A DNA stretch of 64,000 nucleotides from Alphaproteobacteria bacterium (GTDB lineage: Bacteria; Pseudomonadota; Alphaproteobacteria; UBA8366; Aestuariispiraceae), in contig JAWPMN010000001.1 in the NCBI GenBank assembly GCA_033344895.1, positions 3,790,001 to 3,854,000 on the forward strand. Direction: 5' to 3'. The notes under the pieces are model-generated. The model saw nothing but the letters and a program-made list of their open reading frames with translations. It did no database searches and was not told where the DNA came from. The position numbers and the translations under genes are program-made. Shown here piece after piece: positions 34,428 through 37,833 of this stretch; position 1 is the first letter of the stretch; every line of letters begins with the position of its first letter.

Positions 34428-34913
34428 TCAGGGCGACACTTTCCCGGCGTGGATGGTGCGCAAGCCGCTCAAGATATCATGCAGGAATCGGCTGCGGTCG
34501 TCGAAAAGGACATACAGCAGGGGCACGAAGCTGAAGGCGACACTGACATAGAACAGCAATGTCAGGATCAGGGCCTGGAGAACCGAGGGGACATGCCCGG
34601 TTTCCGCGTCGACCACCTTCAATCCCAGGGCAGACTGTCCGACTGTCGCGCCGCGTCCCGAAACCATTAGCGTATGATACGCGATTGGCGTAGCCGCCCA
34701 CAGAAGTGCGGTGATCGGGGCGAGCAGGCCGAAAGTCAGCGCTGTGATCAACCAGAGCGCCACTCCGATCGCCGCGAGCACACAGAAATCGATGAGGTAA
34801 CTCATCGTCCGCTTGAAGATCGTGCCGGACCAGTATTGCGGGTCCTCAAACTGGTCAGTGCCGCTTTTTCCTCGACCCCGCCCGGGTTCGATCTGTCCGT
34901 CCTGGTGTGACAT
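34428..34913 (-). CDS. RDD family membrane protein
   Basis: A 161-residue membrane protein with an Arg/Gly-rich cytoplasmic N-terminus and an RDD domain: KRTMSYLIDFCVLAAIGVALWL with the Arg and Asp that name the family, a second hydrophobic segment ending near AYHTLMVSGRGATVGQSALGLKVVDAETG, and a final segment followed by FDDRSRFLHDILSGL. ATG 34913 is chosen because GAAGGAATGGAG precedes it; more upstream starts lack such a site. RDD proteins are thought to be transporters or membrane organisers; the function here is unknown. Confidence 0.88.
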   Translation of the reverse strand: MSHQDGQIEPGRGRGKSGTDQFEDPQYWSGTIFKRTMSYLIDFCVLAAIGVALWLITALTFGLLAPITALLWAATPIAYHTLMVSGRGATVGQSALGLKVVDAETGHVPSVLQALILTLLFYVSVAFSFVPLLYVLFDDRSRFLHDILSGLRTIHAGKVSP

Positions 34914-35004
34914 GCGCTCCATTCCTTCGCTTTCCATGAATGTGTGCACGCCGCCGGTCTCGTTCAAGTTAGGTCGGATCGCGGGCAGGGGGCAACGGAC
35001 ACTA

Positions 35005-35880
35005 TCAGGGCGGCGCCGGCGCCTGGCGCAACAGTACGATTGTCATGCGCCGGTTCTGCGGAGAGGAAGGGTTTTCCGGGATCAGGGGGTCTGAATCCGC
35101 GACACCGATGACAGTTTCGAAGCGGACCTCGGGGATATTGTTCTGCCGCAAGCCGCGGCGGACAGAGTTGGCTCGATCCACGGACAGGTCCCAACTTTGA
35201 TCGCCCCCCTCGTCGCTGCCCGTGTGGCCGGTAATCGATATGGGATTGGGCAAATTGATTGCGATGTCAGAGAGCAGTTGAAGGCTGATGCGTGCGTGTT
35301 CCGTCAACTGCGCGGTGCCTTCCTGGAAGTTCGACTTGTCGCGACTGTCGACCAGTTGAATCCGCAAGCCTTCATCCGTCACGTCGATCTTGACGGTTTC
35401 CTTCAGGTCCTGGAGTTCAGGCGGCAATTCATTGATTTGCGTTTCCAGGTTCTGTTTAGCCTGGTTGAAACGCTTTTCTTCCTCATCGGCGTTGACTTCG
35501 CCGATGCTGCCGGTGCTGGTCACATCGTCCTTACCGGATTCGTCGTCGCTGGAATTCAGGTTCCCCTGCGAGGAGCCGTCGGTCGCGTCCGGGGATTCGG
35601 TCCGCTTGTCCTGCGTCGGGCCGGGCTGGTTGGGGGTGATGCCGCCGAACACGTTGTTTGAGCCGGAATCGGCCGAGGTCGTTCGCGTGGTCGGTGTGAA
35701 ATAGTTTGAGATGCCGTCCAGTACTTCCTGTTCGGTCGCATTCAGCAGCCACAGCAACAGAAAGAACGCCATCATGGCGGTAACGAAATCGGCATAGGCG
35801 ACCTTCCAGGCGCCACCATGGGCGCCTTCCTCGGGGACCTTTACCTTCTTCACGATGATTTGCTGCTCGAGATCTGCCAT
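35005..35880 (-). CDS. MotB-like stator protein, second copy
   Basis: A 291-residue MotB-type protein. The N-terminal GAHGGAWKVAYADFVTAMMAFFLLLWLLNAT contains the single membrane helix with the proton/sodium-binding Asp. A Ser/Asp/Thr-rich linker (about residues 65-135) follows, and the OmpA-like domain lies at about 150-285. In that domain the peptidoglycan motif reads TGHTGSDE, so the conserved Asp of GHTD is Gly, whereas the Arg of LSVDRANSVRR is kept. GGAGGG lies four bases before ATG 35880, which is 11 bases behind the first motB. It is co-transcribed with motA and the first motB. Confidence 0.88.
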   Translation of the reverse strand: MADLEQQIIVKKVKVPEEGAHGGAWKVAYADFVTAMMAFFLLLWLLNATEQEVLDGISNYFTPTTRTTSADSGSNNVFGGITPNQPGPTQDKRTESPDATDGSSQGNLNSSDDESGKDDVTSTGSIGEVNADEEEKRFNQAKQNLETQINELPPELQDLKETVKIDVTDEGLRIQLVDSRDKSNFQEGTAQLTEHARISLQLLSDIAINLPNPISITGHTGSDEGGDQSWDLSVDRANSVRRGLRQNNIPEVRFETVIGVADSDPLIPENPSSPQNRRMTIVLLRQAPAPP

Positions 35881-35891
35881 GGCGCCCTCCG

Positions 35892-36911
35892 TCAATTCTC
35901 GGGTAGGGGCGGCGGGGCAAGACCGCTCGTATCGCGTGCCGGTGCGGCGCCGGCGTCTCCGCTGCCTGGAACATCGTCCACGCCCGGCACGAAGACCTGC
36001 TGTTGCTTCTCCGGCGCATTCTGGCGCAACAACAGGATGGAAATTCGGCGATTCCGTTCATTCTCGGGATCACGAGGGTCAAGAAGGTCGGAATCGGCCT
36101 TGCCTTCGACCCGTACGAGACGGCTTGTCGGAAAGCCGTTGCGCTCCATCCAGCGACGGCTGGCCGCCGCCCGATCCCCGGACAACTCCCAGTTTCCATA
36201 GTCCGGTGTCGCGCCAGGCTGCGGCGCGGAATCCGTATGGCCCGTGATCGCGACATCATTGGGAAGCTGCACGATGATGCCGCTGATCAGTGCCAGCAGG
36301 CGAACGGCGCGCCGTGTCATCTGGTCGGTTCCGGGCTCGAACATCTCCCGTCGTTGATAGTCCAGTAGCTGGATCAGCAGCCCGTCCTCAGTGATCTCAT
36401 AGATAATGCTGTCCTGAAGATCACGGACACTGGGGTCTTCCTGAATGGACTGTTTCAGCTTTGCCAGAGCGTCATCCAGCATCTGCTGCTCCTGCTGCTC
36501 GGCAGTGGCGTCGCCCAGATTGACATTGGCAGCGTCGGGATCTTCCCGTTCCTCGCCGGTTTCCTTGCCGGACTCCTCCGAACCGTAGGAAGGGATCGCA
36601 ACGCTGGTAACCGGTGGGGACGATGCGGAACGCATTGCGCCCTCCAGAGAGGCCACGGCACCGGATAGGGCCTGACCGATGCCCTGGGAATCCTCCGCCG
36701 CGCTGGGCGGGGCGAAATAGTCGGACAGGCCGGTCATCTGCTCTTCGGTCGTGGCGTTGAGGAGCCATAACAGGAGAAAGAACGCCATCATGGCGGTCAC
36801 GAAATCGGCATAGGCGACTTTCCAGGCGCCGCCATGGGCCCCTGCCGGGATCTTGATCTTCTTTTTCAGGATCAGCGGTTCTATCGCTTCACCCTGGAGA
36901 CCTTCCGACAT
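35892..36911 (-). CDS. motB: Flagellar motor stator protein MotB
   Basis: A 339-residue MotB. The membrane helix region GAHGGAWKVAYADFVTAMMAFFLLLWLLNAT carries the ion-binding Asp and is nearly identical to that of the next gene. A variable linker of about 120 residues follows. The OmpA-like peptidoglycan-binding domain has the complete motif TGHTDSAPQ and NWELSGDRAAASRRWM. The C-terminus is Pro-rich. MotB anchors MotA to the cell wall and opens the ion channel. It lies 55 bases after motA. Confidence 0.93.
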   Translation of the reverse strand: MSEGLQGEAIEPLILKKKIKIPAGAHGGAWKVAYADFVTAMMAFFLLLWLLNATTEEQMTGLSDYFAPPSAAEDSQGIGQALSGAVASLEGAMRSASSPPVTSVAIPSYGSEESGKETGEEREDPDAANVNLGDATAEQQEQQMLDDALAKLKQSIQEDPSVRDLQDSIIYEITEDGLLIQLLDYQRREMFEPGTDQMTRRAVRLLALISGIIVQLPNDVAITGHTDSAPQPGATPDYGNWELSGDRAAASRRWMERNGFPTSRLVRVEGKADSDLLDPRDPENERNRRISILLLRQNAPEKQQQVFVPGVDDVPGSGDAGAAPARDTSGLAPPPLPEN

Positions 36912-36966: not shown

Positions 36967-37833
36967 TTAGCCGCTGACCGGCGGCAGGGATTCGACCGCG
37001 CTTTCCACCTCTGCGAAGGTCGGGCGGTTATGCGGCGCCAGAGACTTGCGGGCGAATTCCGTTGAAACCGCCGGTGCATATCCCGCGAGATGCGCCAGAA
37101 TGCCTGCCTTCATGCAGTTAAAGTAGGTTGCTTCCTCTTCCATGATCGCCTTTGCATTGCTGGCGAAGGGAGCGAAGAAACCATAGCACAGCAGAATGCC
37201 GAGGAAGGTACCCACCAGGGCGCCGCCGATCAGCCGGCCCAAGACTTCGGGCGGCTCGTTGATCGACCCCATGGTCTTGATGACCCCCAGAACCGCCGCG
37301 ACAATCCCGAGGGCAGGGAAGCCTTCTGCCATACCCGTCAGGGCGTGGGCGATCTGGTGATCGGTCTGGTGGTGCGTTTCCAAATCCGCATCAATCAGCG
37401 CCTCGACTTCATGCGGATTGTCTGTGCCCAGCGTCATGAGGCGCAGATAGTCGCAGAAAAATTCGATGGCGTGATGATCCTTGTGGAATTTCTCGAACGG
37501 CTCGAACAGTTTTGAATCGTGTGGATTCTCGACATGCTGTTCGACCGCCAGCGCGCCCTTCTGCTTGATCAACTTGAAGACCTGATACTGCATGGTCAGC
37601 AGTTCCAGATAGTCGGCCTTCTTGTATTTAGGGCCCTTGAAAATGCCGCCGAGACGGCTGACCGAGCCCTTCACGATGCGCATCGGGTTGGCGATGATGA
37701 AGGCCGAAGCCCCGGCGCCAAAAATCAGGGTGAATTCAAAGGGCTGGTTCAGAACGCCCAGTTTACCGCCCATGGCCATGTAGGAGCCCAGGACACATCC
37801 GATAACTGCGACAATTCCAATGATAACAAACAT
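36967..37833 (-). CDS. motA: Flagellar motor stator protein MotA
   Basis: A 288-residue MotA with four membrane helices. Seen are the N-terminal IIGIVAVIGCVLGSYMAMGGKLGVL, the cytoplasmic loop LRLMTLGTDNPHEVEALIDADLETHH, and the third and fourth helices with MAEGFPALGIVAAVLGVIKTMG (the conserved proline) and LVGTFLGILLCYGFFAPFAS. It forms a pentamer around two MotB chains. It is the first gene of motA-motB-motB2. The 137 bases upstream show no confident sigma-28 promoter. Confidence 0.95.
   Translation of the reverse strand: MFVIIGIVAVIGCVLGSYMAMGGKLGVLNQPFEFTLIFGAGASAFIIANPMRIVKGSVSRLGGIFKGPKYKKADYLELLTMQYQVFKLIKQKGALAVEQHVENPHDSKLFEPFEKFHKDHHAIEFFCDYLRLMTLGTDNPHEVEALIDADLETHHQTDHQIAHALTGMAEGFPALGIVAAVLGVIKTMGSINEPPEVLGRLIGGALVGTFLGILLCYGFFAPFASNAKAIMEEEATYFNCMKAGILAHLAGYAPAVSTEFARKSLAPHNRPTFAEVESAVESLPPVSG

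Follow-up and report, generated by a model that had tools for sequence, protein, structure and literature searches.

Two diverged MotB paralogues behind a single motA in an alphaproteobacterial order, with altered peptidoglycan pockets

The B subunits of flagellar stators are normally described as homodimers, anchored to the cell wall via a strongly conserved pocket for diaminopimelate (DAP). The residues conserved in the OmpA family are, in the numbering of H. pylori MotB, Gly161, Asp164, Leu179, Arg183 and Arg226; the PAL residues equivalent to Asp164 and Leu179 contact DAP, and the loop running from GHT to the conserved W is implicated in contact with glycan and DAP (PMC3080404). The Asp of the GHTD motif is reported to contact meso-DAP, as Asp164 of H. 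pylori MotB, Asp198 of Salmonella and Asp71 of PAL (PMC3080404, PMC8253398), and the DAP contacts of TagL are Asp, Asn, Leu and Arg (PMC8253398). One motA accompanied by two motB genes is already known from the motA-motB1-motB2 operon of Aquifex aeolicus, whose two MotBs are 97% identical in their N-terminal and transmembrane regions and 23% identical in their periplasmic regions (PMC4525482). The locus analysed here, also motA-motB1-motB2, lies in a stretch of 64,000 nucleotides (the window; positions 3,790,001 to 3,854,000 of contig JAWPMN010000001.1, assembly GCA_033344895.1) from an alphaproteobacterium of the family Aestuariispiraceae, order UBA8366. A preliminary description of this DNA reported a tandem motB pair after motA, with GHTD in the first copy and GHTG in the second: the open reading frames, their phase and their motifs are as it gave them, and its account of the GHTD Asp as a DAP-contacting residue agrees with the published chemistry (PMC3080404, PMC8253398).

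On the minus strand the genes run motA, motB1, motB2, RDD-family gene; these and the sites discussed below are, in window positions:

36967..37833, minus strand: motA, the stator A subunit (TIGR03818, 364 bits against a cut-off of 303.8)
35892..36911, minus strand: motB1, 339 residues, PF13677 and PF00691, with GHTD...NWELSGDRA...NRR and five of five pocket residues
35005..35880, minus strand: motB2, 291 residues, ATG start at 35880, PF13677 and PF00691, with GHTG and four of five pocket residues
36231..36233, minus strand: codon of the GHTD Asp (D227) of MotB1, GAT, read from the sequence
35218..35220, minus strand: codon of Gly221 of MotB2, GGC, the position equivalent to the DAP-contacting Asp164 of H. 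pylori MotB
35194..35220, minus strand: shortened MotB2 loop, GSDEGGDQS, nine residues from GHT to W where MotB1 has 14; a Glu stands three places after the missing Asp (+3)
34428..34967, minus strand: gene for an RDD-family membrane protein (PF06271), the syntenic neighbour downstream

MotB1 reads ITGHTDSAPQPGATPDYGNWELSGDRA and MotB2 reads ITGHTGSDEGGDQSWDLSVDRA. For motB2 a start further upstream, the TTG at 35895, is the less likely of the two candidates, the ATG at 35880 being preferred because it has a GGAGG Shine-Dalgarno sequence and a spacing of 11 nt from the motB1 stop. The single PF20560 match genome-wide makes this motA the sole MotA_N-type MotA of the genome.

The tandem is a property of the order. 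We sampled 44 genomes of it; a MotB of the type studied was found in 33, and all 33 have the adjacent motB1-motB2 pair (the motB1 of G035 is interrupted by an in-frame split, probably through an assembly or sequencing fault). Presence of the tandem follows that of flagella, since 28 of the 29 FlhA-positive genomes have it; only G036, which is 84% complete, is without it, and in family f4 FlhA and the tandem are absent together. The arrangement motA-motB1-motB2-RDD-arginyltransferase is common to genomes of f1 (the family of the window genome), f2 and f3, where the RDD-family gene keeps its place and orientation, and the RDD-family gene is possibly in the same transcript as the motB genes. That tandem and synteny recur across the order, and that each of the six genomes of the genus has Gly at this site in its MotB2, argues that the arrangement is more than chance. 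Outside the order, two adjacent full-length MotBs were seen in none of 100 matching genomes of the class, a search that a strongly diverged second copy scoring below E 1e-28 could escape, and 79 other named loci have one MotB each. An unrooted tree of 33 MotB1, 33 MotB2 and 29 single-copy MotBs falls into three clean groups, the MotB1 clade, the MotB2 clade and the single-copy proteins (supports 100/99, 100/100 and 96/87), the last figure being that of the split between both copies of the order and the single-copy alphaproteobacterial MotBs. Since all MotB1s group in one clade and all MotB2s in another, the tree indicates a single duplication, before the families of the order separated.

Both products are recognizably MotB. 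Each has MotB_plug (PF13677) and OmpA (PF00691) matches, all above cut-off; in both, a single N-terminal transmembrane helix carries the ion-binding Asp and leads into the plug. The NCBIfam equivalog PRK09041 scores 240.1 on MotB1 and 212.5 on MotB2, below its curated cut-off of 277, yet it is the best-scoring model for both, and the TIGR03818 MotA is encoded directly upstream of both genes. AlphaFold models of the two proteins contain confident OmpA-like domains (predicted local distance difference test score about 84-97 in the peptidoglycan-binding domain of MotB2) with their structural elements in the same order; the best match of the MotB2 model among solved structures is Salmonella MotB (Foldseek E 2.9e-15), and the helix has its start four residues ahead of W in MotB2 and one residue ahead in MotB1. 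The membrane helices, which the preliminary description called nearly the same, are identical over 31 residues, GAHGGAWKVAYADFVTAMMAFFLLLWLLNAT, a segment that includes AYADFVTAM; outside it the copies diverge strongly, with about 43% of residues identical across the part that can be aligned. Within 31 of 32 genomes a 23-residue membrane segment is the same in both copies. Gene conversion of this segment was tested: the similarity of transmembrane codons is raised in f1 and f2, but that of the peptidoglycan domain is raised likewise, and the idea was dropped because shared codon usage explains the within-genome similarity of both parts.

To judge from their substitution patterns, both copies are working genes under strong purifying selection: over six close genome pairs the ratio of nonsynonymous to synonymous substitution (dN/dS) is 0.03-0.12 for MotB1 and 0.03-0.11 for MotB2. 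The distance from the motB1 stop to the likely motB2 start ranges from -8 to +36 nt in all 33 genomes, a spacing like that of translationally coupled genes.

Of the five residues of the DAP pocket, MotB2 of the window keeps four, the Leu and both Arg among them, and has Gly in place of Asp164, a change that should lower any claim of standard peptidoglycan binding by MotB2, though not of its MotB homology. The GHTG form is fixed in the genus (6/6); across the order the MotB2 residue at 164 is D in 14 genomes, G in 10, A in five, S in two and T in one, and is deleted in one. MotB1 is not exempt: D stands there in 24 genomes, N in four, E in three and G in two, and changes at the site map to the tree five times in the MotB1 clade, five times in the MotB2 clade and once among single-copy proteins, on the caulobacterial branch. 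The full set of five is present in both copies of 11 genomes, in MotB1 only in eight, the window genome included, in MotB2 only in three, and in neither copy of 11. Relatives with an intact motif in both copies, which the preliminary description named as evidence against its reading, make up 11 of 33 genomes of the order and none of the genus. By comparison, 61 of 79 single-copy MotBs keep all five residues and the other 18 are all from Caulobacterales; since every one of the 61 non-caulobacterial proteins keeps the Asp, the site is normally constrained.

Other parts of the pocket changed as well. MotB2 retains Gly161, Arg183 and Arg226 in 33/33, but in f1 its GHT-to-W loop is 9-10 residues long, against 12-14 in single-copy MotBs, and most f1 members have lost Asn175. 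Arg226 is missing from MotB1 in three f2 genomes. In G011, G008 and G013 (L013, L015, L017) MotB1 has Gln or Lys for Arg183 and MotB2 is without the Asp, so that each copy misses a different DAP contact. An acidic residue at +3 of the missing Asp, Glu224 in MotB2 of the window, is present in 14 of the 19 Asp-less MotB2s and also in MotB1 of G014 and G019, but the 64 rows from named loci that bear the Asp show no case of it; it could replace the lost Asp, as no more than a lead. Unusual wall chemistry was excluded as the cause of GHTG: it did not force the change, because the Pal of the same genome (GHADERGTDDYNLALSARRA) and several of its other OmpA-domain proteins retain the canonical Asp.

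We favour, at a probability of roughly one half, the reading that motA-motB1-motB2 encodes the main flagellar stator of the order, its B positions filled by two paralogues whose wall contacts are relaxed or relocated. A single ancient duplication gave two B subunits that share the channel helix and diverged in their periplasmic parts. Translated together, MotB1 and MotB2 would enter the same MotA5B2 units, and many or all units may carry one of each; because every such unit would hold two unlike wall-binding domains, selection on either DAP pocket would be relaxed or reshaped. In the genus MotB2 no longer has the Asp that contacts DAP and has a shortened loop next to it, but keeps Leu and both Arg; its loop Glu may stand in for the Asp, and its wall binding would be altered, not absent. 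The mixed MotB1-MotB2 dimer that the preliminary description raised is plausible, and its case is strengthened by the retention of both copies across the order and by translational coupling; we favour at least a large share of mixed units because nothing in the identical helices would separate the copies, the two are produced together, and all 33 genomes have kept both. The stricter form, an obligate MotA5-MotB1-MotB2 heterodimer whose unlike wall anchors divide the labour, one of them without standard DAP recognition, is a tentative proposal that we would not expect to hold.

Several points weigh against the favoured reading. Co-retention and coupling also fit two homodimeric stators sharing MotA; a rule of one good anchor for each dimer does not apply throughout, neither copy being fully intact in 11 genomes; the structure models are of monomers without ligand; and the association of Asp loss with the +3 acid does not reach significance in independent contrasts (over 10 pairs, about 2 in support and 0.8 opposed), so that the acid, however suggestive its counts, was rejected as proven compensation. 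The 11 genomes with neither pocket complete show that an altered pocket is tolerable to these stators, provided that no other stator takes their place; further MotA/MotB-like genes are present in most of these genomes, though few in G014 and G019.

The strongest competitor, which we nevertheless think unlikely, has two homodimeric stators, MotA5(MotB1)2 and MotA5(MotB2)2, that share MotA, are exchanged with load and differ only in wall anchoring, a model close to the second idea of the preliminary description. One MotA serving two MotBs, with a common channel helix and diverged periplasmic parts, speaks for it, and Aquifex MotA chimeras with either MotB N-terminal half function in E. coli (PMC4525482). 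Alternative stators should, however, be dispensable in some lineages, and no copy has been lost; the coupling of motB1 to motB2 is always tight, identical membrane helices offer no obvious means of keeping the copies apart, and both pockets are non-canonical in 11 genomes. A related suggestion in the preliminary description, that stators swap with ion supply, is improbable given one MotA and the same membrane helix in both copies, which also led us to set aside switching of ion type.

Somewhat less likely again is a tolerant Asp site, where MotB2 would bind peptidoglycan normally via its remaining residues or a relocated acid and GHTG would have no functional meaning. In its favour, the Caulobacterales MotBs have Ser or Asn at the site and an Asp before the conserved Trp in 18/18; the +3 acid is frequent in MotB2, and the MotB2 fold is predicted to be intact. 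Against it, the Asp is constant in the 61 non-caulobacterial single-copy proteins, so that the site is normally constrained; the f1 MotB2 loop is moreover shortened, and Asn175 has gone from most f1 members. The same comparison bears on the idea that GHTG means weak anchoring of the stator. Weak anchoring does not follow from the Gly alone, as 18/18 caulobacterial MotBs also lack the Asp and the other four pocket residues of MotB2 are kept; in its favour, the f1 MotB2 loop is about four residues shorter than usual. That MotB2 is a decaying, non-functional copy is very improbable: a conserved pocket residue is gone and its stem branch in the tree is longer than that of MotB1, but it is kept in 33/33 with Arg183 and Arg226 invariant, and its dN/dS and intact frames contradict a pseudogene.

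Three further sets of stator-like genes were seen in the window genome. Near flhB and fliR (L162:9678-15054; genome about 4393677-4399053), a gene for a 268-residue protein with MotB_plug and OmpA domains overlaps a 337-residue gene without Pfam match and a 1187-residue AMIN-domain gene; a second, weak plug match lies beside the first and, because it recurs in seven relatives, these genes may form a stator-like or scaffold set of the flagellar region that has not been described. A MotA_ExbB-family gene without MotA_N (L161:7311-8147; genome about 4443310-4444146) sits just before flhA, flanked by fliN and a sigma-54 regulator; a match of this kind near flhA recurs in most relatives. A second MotA/MotB-like pair adjoins a metallo-beta-lactamase-fold gene (L147:7043-8598; genome about 1962042-1963597), its MotB-like protein having GHTSD and a Gln replacing a pocket Arg, and MotA-like matches of this kind recur in f1 relatives.

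An order with two unlike B subunits beside one MotA is a natural experiment in how much wall contact a stator needs, and it bears also on a possible division of tasks between the two B subunits of a unit; the repeated alteration of the pocket in both copies suggests that two dissimilar subunits, not identical ones, may anchor the motor. A literature search, with subscription papers mostly outside it, found no report of a one-motA, two-motB pair in Alphaproteobacteria or of a mixed or heterodimeric MotB.

The nearest described arrangement remains that of Aquifex, with its one motA, two tandem motB genes, near-identical transmembrane regions and diverged periplasmic parts. Aquifex belongs to another phylum, however, and the duplication described here can be followed, together with its synteny, across an entire order of Alphaproteobacteria; an origin separate from that in Aquifex fits the tree, which is unrooted and without an Aquifex sequence. 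The DAP pocket in the order is altered in one or both copies, Aquifex being compared by description only. With the MotBs of Salmonella and E. coli (2zvy, 2zvz, 2zov) MotB2 shares the fold, the plug, the ion-binding Asp, the pocket Leu and two Arg; those species differ in having a single motB, a homodimer, Asp198 and a 14-residue loop, against nine residues in MotB2. The Caulobacterales MotBs (18/18, one per locus) resemble MotB2 in lacking the GHTD Asp, replaced by Ser and once by Asn, but have an Asp just before the conserved Trp instead (rows in L053-L129, for example L056, L075 and L109), a loop that is not shortened and no tandem copy in the retrieved loci. Dual stators such as MotAB and MotPS of B. 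subtilis likewise put more than one B subunit in the cell, with a possible response to load or ions; in those systems every B subunit is paired with an A subunit and a channel of its own, whereas here one MotA and one channel helix serve both copies.
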